DNA from: Salinibacter altiplanensis
GTDB taxonomy: Bacteria; Bacteroidota; Rhodothermia; Rhodothermales; Salinibacteraceae
DNA: 64,000 nucleotides
Direction of reading: 5' to 3'
Assembly: GCF_002894645.1 (NCBI RefSeq)
Contig: NZ_NCQY01000020.1
Coordinates: forward strand, 382,804-446,803
Notes under the pieces: model-generated
What the model was told of the DNA's origin: nothing
Seen by the model: only the letters and a program-made list of their open reading frames with translations
The model's database searches: none
Shown here: piece after piece, positions 16,709 to 36,205 of the stretch
How the letters are laid out: every line of letters begins with the position of its first letter
How positions within the stretch are numbered: the first letter of the stretch is position 1
Program-made: the position numbers and the translations under genes

Positions 16709-18100
16709 ATGCTCCGCCGCTCGGTCCTCTTTGCACTCGCGTCCGCCTTGGTCATCGGTCTCGTCGGGTGCGGAAGCCCGTCCAACGAGCCCGCGCCCGG
16801 CTCCATCGACGGGGTGGGCGAGCCGGCCTGGACGCAGGACGCCACCGTCTACGAGGTGTTCGTGCCCGATGCCTCCGCGGAGGGCACCTTCCAGGGGCTC
16901 ATCGGGCGGCTCGATGAGATTCAGAAGATGGGTGTCAACACGCTTTGGCTCATGCCCATCCACCCGATTGGCGAAGAGCGGCGCAAGAGCGACATCGGGG
17001 CGCTCGGATCCCCGTACTCGATTCGGGACTACTACGACGTGAATCCGGACTACGGGACGAAGGCCGACTTCCGGGCGCTCGTCGACTCGGTGCACGCCCG
17101 CGACATGCACATCATCATCGACCTGGTGGCCAACCACACCGCGTGGGACCACCCGTGGCTGGAGGACCACCCGGACATGTACAGCGATGGGCCCATCGAC
17201 GGCTTCACGGTGCCGGTGCTGAACGGCGATACGACCGACTGGACGGACGTCGTGGAGCTTGACTTCGAGACCCCACGGACGCGGCAGGAACTGATCGACG
17301 TTATGCAGTACTGGGTCCGCGAGTTTGACATCGACGGCTACCGGGCCGACGTGGCCCACGCGGTGCCGCTTGACTTCTGGGAGAGCGCAATCGACTCGGT
17401 GGAGGCCCACAAGGAGGTGCTCATGCTCGCCGAGGCGGCTGGGGGAGAGATGCACACGGTGGGCTTCGACCAGACCTACGCCTGGCCCTTCTACGGGGCG
17501 CTGAAGCGGGTGTGGGAGAAGGACGTCCCGGTCCGCACCCTCGCCACGCAGGTCGACACGACGCTCGCCAAGTTGCCGGATGCGGCCCGGCGGCTGCGCT
17601 TTACCACGAACCACGACGAGACGATGTGGGACACCCCCCCGCCCGTCCTCTTCGACGGACGGGAGGGGGCGAAGGCGGCGTTCGTGCTGGCGACGAGCAT
17701 GCCCGGCGCGCCGCTGGTCTACAACGGCCAGGAGCTGGGGGTGGCCGATTCGGTCTCGTTCTTCGCCCGCACGCCGTACGACTGGTCGCAGGCCCCCGAT
17801 GTCCGACGCTTCTATCGGAACTACCTCGGGCTGTACGGCAACAGTCCGGCCCTGCGAACGGGGACCCTGACGGTCCACACCCCGGACGCCGAGGATGTGC
17901 TGGTGTATGAGCGAGCGACGAACACGGACAGCCTGCTCTTTGCGGTCAATGTCCGCGACGCCTCACACGAGGTGCCCCTTCCGGACGGCTACGCCGACGT
18001 GTCCCTCACCGATGCCCTGACGGGGGCGTCCGTGGAAGGGCCGACGCTGCCCATAGAGGGCTACGGCTACCGTGTCCTCCGGCGGGCGGCGGCCGAGTGA
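16709..18100 (+). CDS. Alpha-amylase family (GH13) glycoside hydrolase, lipoprotein
   Basis: Secreted, lipid-anchored alpha-glucan hydrolase or transglycosylase of 463 residues. The signal peptide MLRRSVLFALASALVIG ends in the lipobox LVGC, so it is probably anchored to a membrane. GH13 regions are visible: DLVANHT (region I), DGYRADVAHAV with nucleophile Asp214 (II), LMLAEA with acid/base Glu242 (III) and FTTNHDE with Asp303 (IV). The barrel is followed by a short C-terminal beta domain; there is no starch-binding module. The frame opens at 16607, but the ATG at 16709 gives a proper lipoprotein signal. The MFS transporter downstream on the same strand could handle a product, which is only a guess from position. 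Confidence 0.92.
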   Translation: MLRRSVLFALASALVIGLVGCGSPSNEPAPGSIDGVGEPAWTQDATVYEVFVPDASAEGTFQGLIGRLDEIQKMGVNTLWLMPIHPIGEERRKSDIGALGSPYSIRDYYDVNPDYGTKADFRALVDSVHARDMHIIIDLVANHTAWDHPWLEDHPDMYSDGPIDGFTVPVLNGDTTDWTDVVELDFETPRTRQELIDVMQYWVREFDIDGYRADVAHAVPLDFWESAIDSVEAHKEVLMLAEAAGGEMHTVGFDQTYAWPFYGALKRVWEKDVPVRTLATQVDTTLAKLPDAARRLRFTTNHDETMWDTPPPVLFDGREGAKAAFVLATSMPGAPLVYNGQELGVADSVSFFARTPYDWSQAPDVRRFYRNYLGLYGNSPALRTGTLTVHTPDAEDVLVYERATNTDSLLFAVNVRDASHEVPLPDGYADVSLTDALTGASVEGPTLPIEGYGYRVLRRAAAE

Positions 18101-26479: not shown

Positions 26480-26493
26480 ACTCCATCTCCCCG

Positions 26494-26529
26494 TGCCCCG
26501 TGGCATCATCGATGCTGCGGGGCATTTTT
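26494..26529 (+). terminator. Terminator after tRNA-Gln
   Basis: A long hairpin: TGCCCCG at 26494-26500 pairs with CGGGGCA at 26518-26524, continuing inward through GGCATC/GATGCT around an ATC loop, and is followed by TTTTT at 26525-26529. It begins 14 bases after the tRNA 3' end. Confidence 0.88.
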
Positions 26530-27293: not shown

Positions 27294-30200
27294 ATGGATA
27301 CAACGGTACAAAGGATAGGTTCTGCGGCACGCCCATGGACATTGTTCTTGGGCGCTGCCTTTGCACTTCTTGTCTCTGCATCGCTCTTTGCCGGGGCGGC
27401 CCTCGGTCAAGGGGCTGACCCTCCAGGCACATCGGTTGAACAGGAGGGAGAAGGCACCTGGCACGAGGACGTGCTCCGGATCAAGGTGGCCCCGGACGTT
27501 GCCGGTCAGGCGACGCCCATGAAGCAAAACGGGGTTGCGATGCTCGGCGTCCCCTCCATTGATGCACTCAATCAGGAGTACGACGCCGTCTCGATTGAGC
27601 CCCTGTTTGATGTAGGGGGCGAGTACGAGGAACGTCACCGCGACTACGGCCTCCACCGGTGGTACGAGATCCGTCTCGCCGACGGAAAGGCGTCGGCGGA
27701 CACGGACGTGGAGAGGGTCATGGGGGCATACTCGAATGCCTCGGCCGTCTCTGTGGCCGAAGGAAAGGCTCGGGCCGAGCAGCATGTCACCGAGCGCGGG
27801 TCGGCCCCAGCTACCTCTCTGCTTGACCCACTGCCCGGTCCCCCCGACGATCCGTTGTTTGGGGACCAGTACGGGTTCCAGAATATCGAGGCGGGAGGCG
27901 GATGGCAGACCCGAACTGGAGACACGACCGTCGTCGTGAGCATTCACGACTCGGGCATCAGTGGAAGCTTCGACGGGTCCGAAACGGATCTCAATCATCC
28001 GGACCTTGAGCCGAACGTCTGGTACGGCGGGGACCCGAGTGACGGAAGTGTTCACGGGAAGAACTTTCGTGCTGGTGATCCCGCAGACCTGACCGACAAC
28101 AACGGGCACGGGACGCATGTCACCGGGACGGTTGCCGCCGCGACCAACAACGGCTTCGGCGTGGCGGGGACGGCCGGCGGAAACGGAGAGTTTGCGGACG
28201 GACGTGGGGACGGGGTTCGCTTCATGGTCACTCCGGGCCTCAACCAGCCGGATGCATACATATACGCCGCCGACAACGGCGCGGCCGTCTCCCAGAACAG
28301 CTGGGGCTTTACGAGCCCGGGGGTATTCCCGCAGTCCCTGCAGGACGCCATCGACTACTTTATTGACAACGGCGGTGGCGATGATCTCGACGGAGGGATT
28401 GTCGTGTTCTCCGCTGGAAACGACGCCGACAACGGGGACTGGTTTCCGGCGGCCTACGAGCCAATCGTCTCGGTGGCTTCCACAGACCAGGCCGACAACG
28501 TGTCCACCTTCTCCAACTTTGGGGAATGGGTGGACATCGCCGCCCCGGGCACCGGGATTCTGAGCACTTGGATTGCGGGGCAGGGGAGTGTCGAGAGTAA
28601 CTTTGAGTTCCTGAGTGGGACCTCGATGGCCGCCCCTCACGTGTCGGGGGCCGCCGCGCTGGTGGTGTCCGAGTTCTCCGACGTCAGCAGCCCCGACCAG
28701 GTGGAGTCGATCCTGAAGGAGTCTGCGGACGACATTGGGGCGACGCTGGACATTGGGGCGGGTCGCCTCAACCTAGCCCAGGCACTGCAGGAGGATGACG
28801 GTACGGCCCCGGCGGCGATCACCGACCTCTCGGTCACCGACGTTGCGTCGGCCCACGTCGATCTGCAATGGACCGCCCCAGATGGGGAGCCAACGGTCTA
28901 CGACATTCGCTACTCCACCGACCCGATCGAGGGCGACCAGGACTTTGAGAACGCCACGCAGGCCGATGATCTCCCGTCCCCGTCTGCACCGGGAGAGACC
29001 GACGAGGCAGAGGTTGAGGGCTTGACGCCCGGCACGGAATACTTCTTCGCCGTCAAGTCGTCGGACACGTTTGGCAGTACGTCGGACCTGTCCAACGTCG
29101 CGTCGGCGACCACCGAGAACGCACCGGCGATCGCCGTGGATCCAGAGTCGGTGTCCCAAACGCTGAATACCGGAGAGTCCGGCACAGACAACTTCTCAAT
29201 CTTGAATGTCGGAGAAGACACGCTATCGTTCGCCCTGCAGGCCGGCACTGGTGGCTCTGACATCGCCGACCCGATCGGTGAACCAACGGAGGTTCGCAGC
29301 TTGGTTGGTGCGCTCCCCCCGCGCCTTGAGCAGATCGAGGCCAATCAACCCCAAGACCGATTCTCGGCGAGTGAGACGACGCACAAGCCCGAGGAGGGAG
29401 CCGTGCAGCAGCAATCCACGGAGGTGGAGGGTCGCTCTCTCGCCAAGCTACTTGACGAGGTCGGGACGACCGGCTTCGGGAATGACACCTTCAACCAGGA
29501 GTTCGAAATTTACTCTTTCGATCTTGGCGTTCCCTCCGAACTCACGCTGGTCGACGACGGCGTGGACTCCTTCGCCGGAAACTTCATCCAGGGGAATAAT
29601 GAGGAGCTCTATTGGATTGACAACGCGGACAACAACCTGAAAACATACGCTCTCGACGATGGGACGGTCGAGACGATTGGGGAGTTGAATCCGCAGTCCA
29701 GTGATCCAGGGTGGACCGACCTCGAGACGGATTACTCCACTGGGACGACGTACGTGACGACCACCGATGCGCTCTACGAACTCGATCCGCAGAACGCGGA
29801 GCTGACGCTCGTCGGGGAACTTCCCGGAAGCCTTCTGCCTGTCGCTTTCGCGATCGACGCTGAGGGACAAGGGTATCTCCACGACATTCAGGGGGACAAC
29901 ATCCTGACGGTCGACCTGCAAACGGCGGAGACGGAGGTGCTCGGGTCCACGGGCATCGACGCCAACTTCGCCCAGAGCATGACCTACGACCACGCGACGG
30001 ATCAGCTTCTGATGGCGGCATACAAGGGGTCCACGGCTTCTGTGCCCGCCGAACTCCGAGAGGTAGACACGGAGACGGGCAACACGGAGCTGATTGCCCC
30101 GATTGGCCCGGAAGGCGAGTCCAACGAACTCGGGTGGTTTGCCACGCCGGGGCCGAGCTTCCAGTGGTTGGCTGCCGAGCCGACCGAGGGGGAAGTGGCT

Positions 30201-33200
30201 GCGGGGGACCCGGGAGAAGAAATCACGCTTACCCTCGAGACCGTGGCGGACGATGAGAATGCGAATGACCTCATCGGGGGCCTCGAGTACTCCGGAAGCG
30301 TTCAGGTCGAGAGCAACGACCCGGGCACACCGGTCGAGGAAGTTCCGGTCACGCTGACCGTGGAAGGAACCCCGGCGATTTCCGTGGACGAGAGCCTCGA
30401 CTTCGGCGAGGTCTTCGCCGGCACGACGGGAGAGGACACGCTCACCGTCACGAACACGAGTGACGACGCCATTTTGCAGGTGGCCTCGATCGAGCTTGCC
30501 GAGGGAGACACGCCATTCTCGGTGGCGGACGCATCGCCGTTTGTCCTCAACCCGGGACAGAGTGGAAGCATCCCGCTCGTGTTCGAGCCGACGGAGAATG
30601 GCTCGTTCGAGACCACGCTCTCATTCGCGAACTCGGCCACGGGGACCCAGGAGGTCACGATCACCGGACAGGGATCGCCGTTCGTCTCGATTGAGCCGGA
30701 CGCGCTGGAGCAGGAGATCGACCTGACGACCGGTGACTCGACGGCCACCCAGGAGTTTACCATCACCAACGAGTTCAGTGAGAGCCTTCCGTTCTCGGTC
30801 CTGATCGAATCTCTGGAGTCGGAAAGCATGGACATTACGCCGAAGCTGGCGGATGAGAAGCTCCAGCGCTGGCGTCAGCTTCAGCAGACCGCGCCGCAAC
30901 TGGACGGAGAGACCCCGGAGCCATCTCTCGGACCCGTTCCCAGTGAGGGGCAGGCAACCACTCCTGCCGCGGCACGCCTCCTCGATGGTCCTCAGGTTTT
31001 GGAGGAAACGGGCGTGACGGCCTACGGAGCAGAGGTCCTTGCCCCTGAACTCGTGGCCTTCGACGTGGGCCTGCCGGGCGAATTCACGGTGGTCGACGAA
31101 GGGGTCGACTCATACGCTGGTAACTTCACCTTCGGCAACAACGAAGAAATCTACTGGATCGACAATACGGACAACACCCTCAAGACGTATGCGCTTGCGG
31201 ACGGGACCGTCGAGAGCATCGGGGAACTGAACCCGGTCGGGTCGGACGTCTCCTGGTCGGACCTGGAAACCAATCCGACGGACGGCACGACGTACGTGAC
31301 CGCTGGTGAGGGCAATACCAACCGGCTCTACGAGCTGGACGTAGACGACGCCGAGCTTGACCTCGTGGGGGAGTACGCGAGTGGAGACCTTGTGGTGGCC
31401 CTTGCGATCGACGGCGAAGGAAATGCGTACGCCCACGAGATCGCCAACGACGAAATTCTGAGCGTTGACCTTGAGACGGCGGAGACGGAGGTCGTGGGGC
31501 CCACGGGCATCGACGCCAACTTTGCCCAGAGCATGACCTACGACGCTGAGACGGGCCAGGTGCTCATGGCCGCGCTCCATGACTGCGGTCTCTTCGGCTG
31601 CGGGAGTGGTACTCTCCGCCAGGTGGACCGCGAGACCGGCAACACGACGCTGATTGGGCCTTTCCCGGAAGGAGGAAACGACGAGCTTGGCTGGATGGCC
31701 ACGCCGGGACAGGGCATTCCGTGGCTCGCGACGAACCTAGAAAACGGCACGGTGCCGGCTGGCGCCACGCTGGAACTAGAGGCAGAGTACGACGCCACCC
31801 AGATCGTCGAGGGCGACTACGAAGCCCAAATCAGCATCGTCGGGAATCAGCTGCAGGGCGAGCCGAGCGAGTCGGTCTCGGTCAACCTCTCGGTAGAGGC
31901 TGCACCAATTTCCTTCGTCTCGAAGGATTCGCTCGGATACGAGGACCTCTTCGTGGACGATACGTCGAGCACGCAGATGGTCACGCTCCGAAATGACGGC
32001 GCGGCTGACCTGAACGTGACAAACGTGTCGGTCGACTCGGAGAACTTCGCCTTCACCGGCGGCTCAGAGTTCACCCTCGAGCCGGGGGATGCACAAATCT
32101 TCGACGTCGCCTTCACGCCGCAGAGCGTCGGCGAATTCACGGCGACGATGACCATCGAGGGCGAAGAGATCTCGACCCGCGAGGTCACGCTTGTCGGCGA
32201 GGGCATCCCGGCGCCGGAGCTCGCGCTTGATCCGCAAGGCTTCGACAAGCAGGCCTACATTGGCCAGACGCAGGAGGAGACAGTCGCAGTCAGTAACGTG
32301 GGAGACGCCCCGCTGGACTACGAGCTTTCGGTCCTGCCGTCGCAGCCGCCGGTCGAAGATGTCCTCCTGAGTGAGGAAAACTTCGGCGGTGAGTTTCCGC
32401 CGGAGGGAGGCTGGTTCCGAACCGGTGCTAACGATGGGGAAAACTGGCGACAGGGAGGCCTTGGCTCTCCCGCCGAATCCCCCGAGGCAGAGTTCTACTG
32501 GAGCCCAACCACTGTGGGCACGCAGCGCATGGTGACGCCACAGTTGGACACCGAAGGCAAATCGGAGGTGGTGGTCGAGTTTGCCCACCTGATCAATGCC
32601 TTCTCCCCTGATGAATTCGACCTGCGGCTCGAAAGCACCGGCGACGGTGGAGAGACCTGGACCACGGTCAAGGAATTCCCGGCCGAAGATGTCGGTCCGA
32701 TCGAAGAGCAGATCGTGGTCAAGAATGAGGATGTGGGCTCGGATGAATTCCACCTGGCCTGGACGTTCGAGGGCGACTCCTTCCAGATCAACTGGTGGAG
32801 CGTTGATGATGTCCGGGTGTTCGACGGCAGCGAGTGGCTGGCTGTTGATCAGACGACCGGTACGCTCGAACCGTCCGAGTCGGACACGCTCGGCCTCAAC
32901 ATCGATACGACCGTGCCTGGATTGACTGAGGGCACGTACCAGTCGGGCCTTGGCTTCGTGACCAACGCGCCGCTTGCGGAGACCGCCGAGCTGCCGTTCA
33001 CGCTCGATGTAATCGAGGCCCTTTCTGTCACCCCTCAGGACGAGGGAGACGGCGAGGTCTTCCCCAGCGAGACGTTTACGCTGAACATGGACGTCGAAAG
33101 CCTCGATGACCTGGAGGTCTTCTCCTACCAGATGGAGATGGGCTTTAACACTGATCGAATGCAGGTGCAGGAGGTCACGACCGAGGGTACGCTCAGTGAA

Positions 33201-34409
33201 GGCCTCACGCTGACCTCGGACATTAACAACGAGGCCGGTACCGTCACCATCGCCGCGGCCGACGATGGGTTGAATAGTAACAGCACCGAGAGCGGAGAAT
33301 CCGACGGTGACGATGGGGCCGCTCTCTTCGACATCGAAGGCGAAGGCGTTCTCGTGTCGATCAAGGCGACCGGCCAGCCCGACCATGGTGAGATGGTCAT
33401 GAACATGGAGGAAATGACCTTCAACGAGGGTGAGCCGCCGGCCACGCCGGCGAATGACACCATGGAGGTCGTGCCGCTCTACGGCGACACTGACCTTAAC
33501 CTCAGCATCACCGCGGGAGACGCGGGGAGCACCCTCGACTTCGTGGTTGGCACAACGGACCTGCTGGATGCGCAGCAGACCCACGGGGATGTCACTGGCG
33601 ACGGGGACGTCAGTGCCTTCGACGCCTCGCTGATCCTGCAGCGCACGGTGGGAGGCATCTCCTGCTTCCCGGCCGCGCCGGACTGTGAGGAAGGCACTGA
33701 GGAGGCCCTGGCGACGACATCGAAGGCGTCCGGCGATGCGGGCACGTCCTTCGCCTGGGGGGATGTGACGGAACCGAAGCAGTCCGTCAGTGCGGAGAGT
33801 GCGAAGACGGAACTGCCGCTCGTCCTGAACCAGATCGGGACGTCCGTGCAGGCCATCGACGTCAGCACGAAGATCGACCGGGACAAGGTGGCCGTCAATG
33901 ACATGACCGCCCAGCTGCCGGACGACTGGCAGGCGGTGCACCATGTGGCCGACAATGGCACCCTGAAGATCTCGATGGCCGGAACCACGCCGATTGCCAA
34001 CCCGGGCAAGGTGGCGACCCTCACCCTTGAACGGGAGAAGGAGGACGCGACCTTGAAGATTGGCGGCAACGTGGCCGTGAACGAATCAGCCACCCAGGAG
34101 CTGGAGACGAAGTCACTGGTCTCCATCCCGGACGAGTTTGCCCTGGAGGGGGCGTACCCGAACCCCTTCCGGCAGGCCGCCACGCTGGAGATGGACCTGC
34201 CTCAGAAGGCGAACGTGACCGTCGAGGTCTACGACCTGCTGGGCCGGAAGGTACAGACGGCCCACCGCGGCGAACTGTCGGCCGGAGCGGGCCGCACGGT
34301 TCGAGTCAACGGTTCGGACCTCTCGTCCGGCACGTACTTCTACCGTGCCCGCGTGGAGATGGACGACAACCGTGTTACCGAGACTGGGAAGATGACGGTC
34401 GTTCGGTAG
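27294..34409 (+). CDS. Giant T9SS-exported subtilisin-like (S8) protease with cohesin-like and dockerin-like modules
   Basis: A 2371-residue secreted protein. Signal peptide about 1-40; propeptide to about 190; S8 domain with Asp219 (HDSGISG), His272 (GHGTHVTG) and Ser444 (SGTSMAAPHV). Then a fibronectin type III domain (about 502-605); ASH/HYDIN-like beta sandwiches; two copies of a 175-185-residue module (about 741-915 and 1249-1436) sharing YWIDN and GIDANFAQSMTYD; a jelly-roll-like domain (about 1690-1843); a cohesin-like domain (about 1906-2062); and a dockerin-like pair of 23-residue calcium loops (GDTDLNLSITAGDAG, GDVTGDGDVSAFDAS, about 2062-2122). A second cohesin-like segment follows. 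The C-terminal T9SS type A sorting domain is about 2281-2371 (YPNPF, VYDLLGRKV, LSSGTYFYRA). It probably degrades proteins at the cell surface or outside. Confidence 0.9.
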   Translation: MDTTVQRIGSAARPWTLFLGAAFALLVSASLFAGAALGQGADPPGTSVEQEGEGTWHEDVLRIKVAPDVAGQATPMKQNGVAMLGVPSIDALNQEYDAVSIEPLFDVGGEYEERHRDYGLHRWYEIRLADGKASADTDVERVMGAYSNASAVSVAEGKARAEQHVTERGSAPATSLLDPLPGPPDDPLFGDQYGFQNIEAGGGWQTRTGDTTVVVSIHDSGISGSFDGSETDLNHPDLEPNVWYGGDPSDGSVHGKNFRAGDPADLTDNNGHGTHVTGTVAAATNNGFGVAGTAGGNGEFADGRGDGVRFMVTPGLNQPDAYIYAADNGAAVSQNSWGFTSPGVFPQSLQDAIDYFIDNGGGDDLDGGIVVFSAGNDADNGDWFPAAYEPIVSVASTDQADNVSTFSNFGEWVDIAAPGTGILSTWIAGQGSVESNFEFLSGTSMAAPHVSGAAALVVSEFSDVSSPDQVESILKESADDIGATLDIGAGRLNLAQALQEDDGTAPAAITDLSVTDVASAHVDLQWTAPDGEPTVYDIRYSTDPIEGDQDFENATQADDLPSPSAPGETDEAEVEGLTPGTEYFFAVKSSDTFGSTSDLSNVASATTENAPAIAVDPESVSQTLNTGESGTDNFSILNVGEDTLSFALQAGTGGSDIADPIGEPTEVRSLVGALPPRLEQIEANQPQDRFSASETTHKPEEGAVQQQSTEVEGRSLAKLLDEVGTTGFGNDTFNQEFEIYSFDLGVPSELTLVDDGVDSFAGNFIQGNNEELYWIDNADNNLKTYALDDGTVETIGELNPQSSDPGWTDLETDYSTGTTYVTTTDALYELDPQNAELTLVGELPGSLLPVAFAIDAEGQGYLHDIQGDNILTVDLQTAETEVLGSTGIDANFAQSMTYDHATDQLLMAAYKGSTASVPAELREVDTETGNTELIAPIGPEGESNELGWFATPGPSFQWLAAEPTEGEVAAGDPGEEITLTLETVADDENANDLIGGLEYSGSVQVESNDPGTPVEEVPVTLTVEGTPAISVDESLDFGEVFAGTTGEDTLTVTNTSDDAILQVASIELAEGDTPFSVADASPFVLNPGQSGSIPLVFEPTENGSFETTLSFANSATGTQEVTITGQGSPFVSIEPDALEQEIDLTTGDSTATQEFTITNEFSESLPFSVLIESLESESMDITPKLADEKLQRWRQLQQTAPQLDGETPEPSLGPVPSEGQATTPAAARLLDGPQVLEETGVTAYGAEVLAPELVAFDVGLPGEFTVVDEGVDSYAGNFTFGNNEEIYWIDNTDNTLKTYALADGTVESIGELNPVGSDVSWSDLETNPTDGTTYVTAGEGNTNRLYELDVDDAELDLVGEYASGDLVVALAIDGEGNAYAHEIANDEILSVDLETAETEVVGPTGIDANFAQSMTYDAETGQVLMAALHDCGLFGCGSGTLRQVDRETGNTTLIGPFPEGGNDELGWMATPGQGIPWLATNLENGTVPAGATLELEAEYDATQIVEGDYEAQISIVGNQLQGEPSESVSVNLSVEAAPISFVSKDSLGYEDLFVDDTSSTQMVTLRNDGAADLNVTNVSVDSENFAFTGGSEFTLEPGDAQIFDVAFTPQSVGEFTATMTIEGEEISTREVTLVGEGIPAPELALDPQGFDKQAYIGQTQEETVAVSNVGDAPLDYELSVLPSQPPVEDVLLSEENFGGEFPPEGGWFRTGANDGENWRQGGLGSPAESPEAEFYWSPTTVGTQRMVTPQLDTEGKSEVVVEFAHLINAFSPDEFDLRLESTGDGGETWTTVKEFPAEDVGPIEEQIVVKNEDVGSDEFHLAWTFEGDSFQINWWSVDDVRVFDGSEWLAVDQTTGTLEPSESDTLGLNIDTTVPGLTEGTYQSGLGFVTNAPLAETAELPFTLDVIEALSVTPQDEGDGEVFPSETFTLNMDVESLDDLEVFSYQMEMGFNTDRMQVQEVTTEGTLSEGLTLTSDINNEAGTVTIAAADDGLNSNSTESGESDGDDGAALFDIEGEGVLVSIKATGQPDHGEMVMNMEEMTFNEGEPPATPANDTMEVVPLYGDTDLNLSITAGDAGSTLDFVVGTTDLLDAQQTHGDVTGDGDVSAFDASLILQRTVGGISCFPAAPDCEEGTEEALATTSKASGDAGTSFAWGDVTEPKQSVSAESAKTELPLVLNQIGTSVQAIDVSTKIDRDKVAVNDMTAQLPDDWQAVHHVADNGTLKISMAGTTPIANPGKVATLTLEREKEDATLKIGGNVAVNESATQELETKSLVSIPDEFALEGAYPNPFRQAATLEMDLPQKANVTVEVYDLLGRKVQTAHRGELSAGAGRTVRVNGSDLSSGTYFYRARVEMDDNRVTETGKMTVVR

Positions 34410-34449
34410 CCCCGATCAGCGCATTATCCAGATCGGCTTCCCTAGATGA

Positions 34450-34494
34450 CCAAGGGGTTCGAGGAGCTGTGCTCCTCGGACCCCTTTGGTTCTT
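34450..34494 (+). terminator. Strong terminator after the protease gene
   Basis: An 18-bp hairpin with one bulge: CCAAGGGG (34450-34457) pairs with CCCCTTTGG (34481-34489), continuing through TTCGAGGAGC/GCTCCTCGGA around a 3-base loop, followed by TTCTT. It separates the protease from the next T9SS gene, which therefore needs its own promoter. Confidence 0.85.
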
Positions 34495-34537
34495 GGGGGA
34501 AATCGCCGAGCTCGTACACAAACCCCTTTCGACCACG

Positions 34538-36205
34538 ATGAGTGATCGGTTTCTGCCTGCACTCCTGGCTCTGCTTGTTGTTACCCTCGTTGTGGGGAGT
34601 CCATTGTCCTCTCAGGCACAGAAGGTTCCTTCTGTGACCGTCCCGGAGGTGGAGCCGACGCCTGGGAATACTGTTACTCTCAGCATCGAGGTGGATCTTG
34701 GAGGTAAAGACGCGAAGTCTTACTCAGGTATGGAGTTCATATTCGATGACACGGTTCTGACTATTGTTGAGGTCCGAGACGGAAATGAGCTCAGTTTTGG
34801 GTCAAACAACCTAACGACAAACGAAGGCTCAGGTAAGCTTCGGGTATCTAACACCGCCGGTAGCTCCGTGTCCGGGAGTGGAGAGTTCCTCCAGATCGAT
34901 GTCGAACTGACACAGGGTATACAAAAGCCTGGCACTCCCTTCAGGCTCACTCCGAGTAATAATCTAGTTGGTGAGGTCCCCACCAGTGTATTTGAAAAAG
35001 ACGGCACTGTCTATGAGATCTCAGACATCGACCAAGGGCGGGTTGGGAATTTAAACATGCAAGATGGACGTCAGGGGGGAGATGGTACTACCGCTACAGT
35101 GACGGGTACCGTGACACGAGCATTCGGAGAGTACGTCCGGTTTCAGGATGAGAGTGACAACAGCGATCCGAGTGGTCTGACGGTCGGTCCGGTGAGTGGG
35201 GCTCTGAAGGACGACATCGGAGGAGATATCACGAAAGGAACCCGTCTCTACGTGCGAGGCACACTGTCGGAGCCCGATGGGCTTCTTCGGATCGATAACT
35301 CAGGTCTTAAGAACTACATCATTTTGGAGCAAGGATCGCTTCCAATGGCTCAGGATGTGTCACTGAGCACCCTTCGGTCGAGTGGGGACAAATTTGAGAG
35401 CGAACTCCTTCGGGTCGATGGGCTCTCGTTTCCGAACGCCAGTGGGACATTCGCCGAAAACACGACGTACGAGGTGGAGGAGGGGACGACCCTCCTTGAC
35501 TATCAGGTAGGAGGAGCCGAAGAGACAAACTTGGGCGGCAAGTCGATTCCGGCCGGGACGTTCACCTACGAAGGGGTCCTCGGGGCGTCGAGGAACGGAC
35601 CCCAGCTGGTACCCATCCGCGCGTCGACGGCCCTGCCGGTGGACCTGACCGGCTTCTCGGCGGTGCGCAATGGCTCGTCGGTGCTGTTGACGTGGCAGAC
35701 TGCGAACGAGACCAACAACGCGGGCTTTCGTGTCCAGTACGACCAGACCGGCAGTTGGCAGACCCTCGACTTCGTCCCGAGCAACGCGGCCGACGGAAGC
35801 ACCGGAGAGGCGCAGTCCTATCGGTTTACAGTTGACCGCAGACTGGGGCCGGGCACGCACCGCTTCCGGCTCGAACAGGTCGACCTTGACGAGACGACGG
35901 CCCTCAGCGACACGGTACAGATTGCCGTCGGCATGGAAGGGGCACTGCACCTGAGTGCACCGGCGCCCAATCCGGTCTCTGAACGGGCGACATTCTCGTT
36001 TGCCGTGCAGGAAGGGGCCGAGGCCGAGGTCGTGCTCTACAACATGCTCGGGCAACAGGTCAAGACGCTCTACGAAGGGACCCCCCGTGCTGGCCAATCA
36101 ACCCCCTTGCGCTTTGATGCGGGTGGGCTTTCCAGTGGGGCGTACGTGGTGCAACTCCGAGCAGATGGACGCACCCGCACCCGGCGTTTGACCATTGTAC
36201 GGTAG
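34538..36205 (+). CDS. Secreted protein with cohesin-like domain and T9SS sorting domain
   Basis: A 555-residue exported protein. The signal peptide is MSDRFLPALLALLVVTLVVG...AQ (about 1-31). Residues 32-170 resemble a cohesin beta-sandwich (VTVPEVEPTPGNTVTLSIEV, YSGMEFIFDDTVLTIVEV, GEFLQIDVEL). The middle (about 180-360) resembles an OB-fold DNA-binding/endonuclease-associated region (TVTGTVTRAFGEYVRFQDES, GTRLYVRGTLSE). Residues 365-475 carry the LTGFSAVRNGSSVLLTWQTA module that often precedes T9SS tails. The end (about 480-555) is a T9SS type A sorting domain (APAPNPVSERATFSF, LYNMLGQQVKTLYEG, LSSGAYVVQL). ATG 34538 was chosen as it starts the signal peptide. Possible partner of the dockerin-like module in the preceding protease. 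Confidence 0.8.
   Translation: MSDRFLPALLALLVVTLVVGSPLSSQAQKVPSVTVPEVEPTPGNTVTLSIEVDLGGKDAKSYSGMEFIFDDTVLTIVEVRDGNELSFGSNNLTTNEGSGKLRVSNTAGSSVSGSGEFLQIDVELTQGIQKPGTPFRLTPSNNLVGEVPTSVFEKDGTVYEISDIDQGRVGNLNMQDGRQGGDGTTATVTGTVTRAFGEYVRFQDESDNSDPSGLTVGPVSGALKDDIGGDITKGTRLYVRGTLSEPDGLLRIDNSGLKNYIILEQGSLPMAQDVSLSTLRSSGDKFESELLRVDGLSFPNASGTFAENTTYEVEEGTTLLDYQVGGAEETNLGGKSIPAGTFTYEGVLGASRNGPQLVPIRASTALPVDLTGFSAVRNGSSVLLTWQTANETNNAGFRVQYDQTGSWQTLDFVPSNAADGSTGEAQSYRFTVDRRLGPGTHRFRLEQVDLDETTALSDTVQIAVGMEGALHLSAPAPNPVSERATFSFAVQEGAEAEVVLYNMLGQQVKTLYEGTPRAGQSTPLRFDAGGLSSGAYVVQLRADGRTRTRRLTIVR

Follow-up and report, generated by a model that had tools for sequence, protein, structure and literature searches.

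Few of the modular protein couplers studied so far bind more strongly than cohesin and dockerin, and what this pairing does outside cellulosomes is mostly guesswork. Two neighbouring plus-strand genes of the halophile Salinibacter altiplanensis raise the question of what such a coupler would do on proteins of the type IX secretion system (T9SS). The genes, which we call P1 and P2, lie in a 64-kb stretch of contig NZ_NCQY01000020.1 (the window, meaning the whole stretch of DNA that was analysed); P1 encodes a giant S8 protease with a dockerin and P2 a smaller protein opening with a cohesin. An earlier note on this DNA had proposed a cohesin-dockerin protease complex exported by T9SS. The domain identities, the sorting domains and the presence of the secretion component SprA all support part of that proposal, and what fell away was the "protease complex", since the protease turned out to be one payload among several. 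What recurs in related genomes is a dockerin gene followed by a cohesin gene, and P1 and P2 probably form one such conserved two-gene cell-surface module, with the dockerin of P1 predicted to bind the cohesin of P2 in trans.

Domain layout of P1 and P2

The features of the two genes are as follows (window coordinates, with residues in brackets).

27294-34409, plus strand: P1, 2371 amino acids (aa); S8 protease with cohesin, dockerin, cohesin-like and T9SS sorting domains
27294-27410, plus strand: P1 signal peptide (about residues 1-39)
27471-28739, plus strand: P1 subtilase propeptide (60-197) and S8 catalytic domain (211-482), by Pfam
28815-29087, plus strand: P1 fibronectin III domain (508-598)
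30360-32204, plus strand: P1 stalk with two choice-of-anchor-D/HYDIN immunoglobulin (Ig) domains (1023-1126 and 1545-1637), profile matches
33009-33461, plus strand: P1 cohesin 1 (1906-2056); Pfam Cohesin, 22/22 orthologues, AlphaFold2 (AF2) fold match
33480-33659, plus strand: P1 dockerin (2063-2122); profile against PDB, Dockerin_1, AF2
33486-33521 (2065-2076) and 33588-33623 (2099-2110), plus strand: calcium loops of the P1 dockerin
33747-34118, plus strand: second, divergent cohesin-like domain of P1 (about 2152-2275)
34155-34406, plus strand: P1 T9SS type A sorting domain (2288-2371)
34450-34488, plus strand: GC-rich hairpin between P1 and P2, 18-bp stem, the longest in the window
34538-36205, plus strand: P2, 555 aa; signal peptide, cohesin, OB-like and T9SS sorting domains; start corrected from GTG 34469
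34619-35053, plus strand: P2 N-terminal cohesin; Pfam Cohesin, AF2 fold match
35051-35629, plus strand: P2 middle domain, weak DUF5689/OB-like similarity (E 0.03)
35966-36202, plus strand: P2 T9SS type A sorting domain (Por_Secre_tail/TIGR04183)

The C-terminal region of P1 thus reads cohesin 1, dockerin, cohesin-like domain and Por_Secre_tail, with a linker of a few residues between cohesin 1 and the dockerin; this is the series that the earlier note had read from the letters, two calcium loops included, and each module was found where it had been placed. At the other end, the match to Peptidase_S8 (PF00082, 5e-40) and an intact catalytic triad, D219 (DSG), H272 (HGTH) and S444 (GTSMA, motif 441-444), make P1 an S8 subtilase. 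P1 has four cysteines in total; a Cys pair (CFPAAPDC) just 3' of the dockerin (residues ~2120-2130, window ~33650-33680) is kept in many orthologues and perhaps forms a disulfide clasp. For P2 we rejected a start at GTG 34469 because this codon lies inside the hairpin and the N-termini of the orthologues point to ATG 34538, from which the signal peptide begins MSDRFLPALLALLVV. The signal peptides of both proteins were judged by eye, and an fn3-like segment in P2 was also seen by eye.

Identity of the cohesin and dockerin modules

Against the Pfam Cohesin model (PF00963, cut-off 24.1 bits) cohesin 1 of P1 scored 23.7-24.1 bits, at the cut-off, and the P2 cohesin 28.4-29.3 bits, above it; the P1 dockerin reached 15.9-21.8 bits against Dockerin_1 (PF00404), slightly below the cut-off of 22.9. 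P2 does begin with a cohesin and end in a Por_Secre_tail, as the earlier note had it. The weak scores in P1 were settled by its relatives, in which 22/22 P1-type cohesins, 17/17 cohesins of the downstream gene and 21/22 dockerins matched individually (each counted at E up to 0.1), the best of the 22 P1-type dockerins matching Dockerin_1 at 2.4e-8. A profile of these 22 dockerins searched against PDB found solved dockerins, with 4uyq_B of the adaptor ScaB as its best match (1.4e-14, two matched stretches). The same profile matched at 5e-13 a dockerin-like module in PDB 8x39/8x3a, fragments of 151-152 aa named "Serine protease". A PDB sequence search with P2 alone gave no match, its cohesin identity emerging only through fold and profile.

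AF2 models were built on alignments of 22 sequences for the P1 region and 17 sequences for the P2 cohesin, with mean predicted local distance difference test (pLDDT) values of 80.3 and 82.2, respectively. The model of P1 cohesin 1 matched the ScaC type I cohesin of 4uyp/4uyq (Z 15.5, 134 aligned residues, 2.1 A) and that of the P2 cohesin matched the ScaB cohesin 5nrm_A (Z 16.1, 132 aligned, 2.3 A); the top fold matches of both were nearly all cohesins, with their beta-sandwich fold. In the AF2 model the P1 dockerin forms three helices, most of the module reaching a pLDDT of about 90-95. The fold mismatch that the earlier note had set as a test of its proposal did not occur. Since confidence stays above 80 throughout the junction of cohesin 1 and dockerin, the model suggests that the two make a single rigid piece. 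The third segment of P1 is cohesin-like and divergent, with an hhalign probability of 91.6% (8e-7) and a Pfam Cohesin match in 5/21 members. In both calcium loops of the P1-family dockerins D1 and D12 are invariant or nearly so, and N or D at position 5 is common. By profile and fold, then, P1 carries a real cohesin and a real dockerin, and P2 a real cohesin.

Conservation of the dockerin-cohesin gene order

To place the pair among its relatives we took related loci from the order of the source genome, which is represented by 114 genomes, and annotated them with profiles of the four modules and a sorting-domain profile. Some loci from this order were chosen with nearby cohesins already known; a second sample, from outside the order in a sister order of the same class, was selected by the dockerin profile alone. 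Counting all loci, 49 related dockerin proteins with their own T9SS sorting domain had a readable downstream side, and 40 were directly followed, within about 200 nucleotides (nt), by a gene whose product opens with one to three cohesins. Assuming a generous 0.5% cohesin rate per random gene this order is incompatible with chance, the arithmetic having been done for 25/26. In the sister order the cohesin gene came right after the dockerin gene in every readable locus (17/17, 16 by script and L273 by eye); the gaps were 0-81 nt, and most of these cohesin genes encode two or three cohesins at the N-terminus. Among the nine exceptions, the next gene was another cohesin-dockerin protease in two; a third, L194_12797, opens a row of three in L194, and the rest are L214, L231, L232, L251, L252 and L254. 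The L194 locus (G020 C109:1-20000) has three dockerin-bearing S8 proteases in a row and then one cohesin gene, which amounts to an expanded pair.

Dockerins and cohesins also co-occur by genome (28/29 vs 11/71 in 100 genomes; Fisher 8e-15), a p-value that is too small because the genomes are related and because many of them have cohesin 1 and the dockerin fused in one protein. When genome contigs were searched with P2, generic T9SS tails dominated the matches, and among the loci only L049, from a Bacteroidetes metagenome-assembled genome (MAG), had a dockerin/cohesin pair. One contig, G005 C63 (L205), carries a P2 homologue, and no dockerin protein was found in the G005 genome; its cohesin match at 17384-17971 was reported with one internal TGA, and the locus also has an open 807-aa frame with a cohesin and a sorting domain.

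What surrounds the two modules changes from locus to locus. The front of the dockerin protein is an S8 domain in the family of P1 and in two other families, and many related loci lack a subtilase signature: payloads include beta-helix/NosD in the sister order (L257) and a HYDIN Ig fibre in L198/L202, and we recognised no enzyme in L221 (family f5) or L203. In the downstream protein the cohesin is followed by OB-like, DUF4397, LTD, CHRD or cadherin domains, or by nothing recognised, and then by the sorting domain. Only the dockerin and the downstream cohesin are constant across these loci. Because the front of one protein and the rear of the other change freely, the conserved unit is, to judge from these layouts, the pair of dockerin gene and cohesin gene and not a protease complex. 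Family f5, L203/L204 and most loci of the sister order have dockerin proteins that lack cohesin 1, and there the downstream cohesin gene stays; the downstream cohesin is therefore the constant partner, and this is the best evidence for the target of the dockerin.

Tandem-cohesin scaffoldins in family f9

Three genomes (G034, G046 and G055, family f9) encode T9SS scaffoldins with 4, 6 and 4 tandem cohesins (L236:3912-6593, L237:3507-7109 and L238:5543-8224), each adjoining a single-cohesin T9SS gene, with 8-11 dockerin matches per genome. At least 13 of the f9 dockerin-ended proteins sampled have no sorting domain (dockerin loci L241-L250, L253 and L255), and the domains in those that were scanned include PL14, apiosidase-like, beta-helix, PA14, F5/8C and PKD, along with others of this kind. 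A cohesin gene stands next door to 0/13 dockerin proteins without a sorting domain and to most of those with one. Because this layout of tandem-cohesin scaffoldins and tail-less dockerin proteins is cellulosome-like, it argues that the dockerins of the clade are functional binders.

Genome content and predicted export

The genome of 3.59 Mb has two Pfam-cohesin matches and one profile-dockerin, all of them in the P1/P2 gene pair; the divergent cohesin-like domain of P1 fell below this genome-wide search. Two further weak PF00404 matches (14.5 and 9.4 bits) were not counted, as the P1 dockerin profile did not recover them. TIGR04183 scored above its cut-off in both P1 and P2, which are among 18 sorting-domain matches above cut-off in the genome, and SprA, the only Por/Gld part searched for, is present (SprA_N 3e-84). 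With signal peptide, Por_Secre_tail and SprA in the genome, P1 and P2 are predicted T9SS type A cargo.

The cohesins and the dockerin found by this genome-wide search do not amount to a cellulosome. Two Pfam cohesins in two proteins and a single profile-dockerin do not make a multi-cohesin scaffoldin serving several dockerin enzymes, the sole dockerin enzyme is an S8 protease and not a carbohydrate-active one, and P1 and P2 contain no carbohydrate-binding module (CBM). We rejected the label "cellulosome" for the window.

The hairpin between the genes

A hairpin stands at the same place in most of the relatives tested (P1-P2 gaps of L185-L199). In 11 loci of differing sequence the stem keeps 15-16 of its 16 positions paired, with compensatory changes on both sides in many places; L195 was mis-cut in this count. 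The P1-P2 hairpin has a poor T tract, unlike the T-tailed hairpin at 26492-26526; its candidate roles are weak termination of transcription and RNA processing or stabilisation. In Clostridium cellulolyticum, according to PMC4423207, an RNA-processing/stabilising element sets the ratios of cellulosome subunits; here the hairpin may adjust the P1:P2 ratio, by attenuation or by RNA processing.

Does the dockerin of P1 bind P2?

Pairing of the neighbours P1 and P2 is favoured by a gene order conserved across two orders: the dockerin plug and the cohesin socket stay adjacent although their proteins are otherwise exchanged, which is why we think binding in trans probable. Both proteins would pass the inner membrane by their signal peptides and cross the outer membrane by T9SS, directed by the C-terminal sorting domains, as their domains and the presence of SprA indicate. 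Outside the cell the calcium-folded dockerin near the C-terminus of P1 would bind the N-terminal cohesin of P2, and the protease on its long Ig-like stalk would thereby be coupled to the OB-like and fn3-like segments of P2. Cohesin 1 of P1 may stabilise the abutting dockerin, like the X module in X-dockerins, or may recruit another P1.

Several points weigh against such pairing. Loop 1 of the dockerin is non-canonical, with position 3 variable, no conserved acidic residue there, and L or V in place of G at position 6. Some dockerin genes (L231, L232 and a number of short genes of family f9) have no cohesin gene downstream, so the rule is not absolute. The adjacent cohesin 1 and the cohesin-like domain of P1 could take the dockerin in cis, and both proteins could be attached without any pairing because each already has a sorting domain. 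The adjacency of the genes could come from co-regulation alone, and the hairpin may split P1 and P2 into two transcripts.

Of the rival readings the cis arrangement fares best, and we still consider it unlikely: the dockerin would bind cohesin 1 or the second cohesin-like domain of its own chain and close the C-terminal region, leaving P2 a neighbour with an unrelated cohesin role. Cohesin 1 does abut the dockerin, the cohesin-like domain does follow it, and all three are co-conserved in P1 orthologues; however, the downstream cohesin gene persists in the f5, L203/L204 and most sister-order loci where cohesin 1 is gone, and a linker of a few residues would make it hard for the dockerin to reach the usual cohesin face within its own chain. 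Somewhat more doubtful is a chain or lattice of proteases in which the dockerin of each P1 holds cohesin 1 of the next and the P2 cohesin is a cap or anchor. Cohesin and dockerin in one chain do recall adaptor scaffoldins, the best PDB match of the dockerin being the adaptor ScaB, and G020 (L194) places three such proteases ahead of one cohesin gene, but cohesin 1 is not universal. Least likely, the modules would have no binding role, the cohesin folds being stalk beta-sandwiches, the calcium loops stabilising the stalk and the adjacency reflecting shared expression of surface proteins, for which one can cite the deviating loop 1 and cohesin-like folds known on single proteins outside cellulosomes (2xdh and 2vo8 among the fold matches), yet the gene order is maintained in two orders despite swapped payloads, and the f9 tandem-cohesin T9SS scaffoldins and tail-less dockerin proteins are easiest explained by dockerin-cohesin binding.

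Relation to known systems

Earlier work has already suggested that T9SS substrates carry cohesin-dockerin complexes other than cellulosomes. For Ca. Stygibacter (Cloacimonadota) a putative T9SS-linked, cellulosome-like complex was proposed from MAGs (PMC8542988), a genome inference that likewise involves dockerin-bearing peptidases, S8 among them, and a cohesin protein with a T9SS-type C-terminal domain. In that complex many enzymes share a single 3,755-aa scaffoldin equipped with multiple cohesins and with CBMs, whereas the P1/P2 module is fixed at two genes, with a sorting domain on each partner and one cohesin in P2. The planctosome of Nemodlikiaceae (Planctomycetes) is, as excerpted from PMC6461901, a proposed non-cellulosomal cohesin-dockerin assembly for peptide degradation whose anchor protein joins LTD and cohesin, as does the downstream protein of L191 (Pfam LTD); in that excerpt it differs in having metallopeptidases and an adaptor with its own dockerin and cohesin, and T9SS is unmentioned. 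Cellulosomal type I pairs (4uyp/4uyq, ScaC cohesin and ScaB dockerin) share the fold and profile of both modules, but the P1/P2 gene pair has no multi-cohesin scaffoldin, cellulase or CBM and is predicted to be exported by T9SS. The Archaeoglobus cohesin (2xdh) and the Clostridium perfringens enzymes (2vo8, 2w1n) share a non-cellulosomal cohesin fold on single proteins and differ in not being T9SS proteins. A 2008 survey of prokaryotic serine proteases listed a Salinibacter ruber subtilase as "Subt-fn3", with cohesin and dockerin not mentioned (PMC2605481); this is possibly a P1 orthologue. A non-exhaustive literature search found no paper on the P1/P2 gene pair.

Tentatively, and with less assurance than for the pair itself, we suggest a previously undescribed two-partner surface system spanning two orders of the class, in which an exchangeable dockerin/cohesin coupler would sit on adjacent T9SS cargos and the hairpin would tune stoichiometry in some lineages. 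In f9 it would have expanded into scaffoldins of 4-6 cohesins holding tail-less dockerin proteins, the dockerin replacing the T9SS tail and possibly allowing piggyback crossing of the outer membrane.

A minimal halophile system with one dockerin, together with relatives that swap its cargo, makes a clean test of a non-cellulosomal role for cohesins, and the P1/P2 pair also tests the assembly of a complex after type IX export and the function of the coupler at extreme salt. The tandem-cohesin scaffoldins of f9 would connect this minimal pair to a cellulosome-like system.

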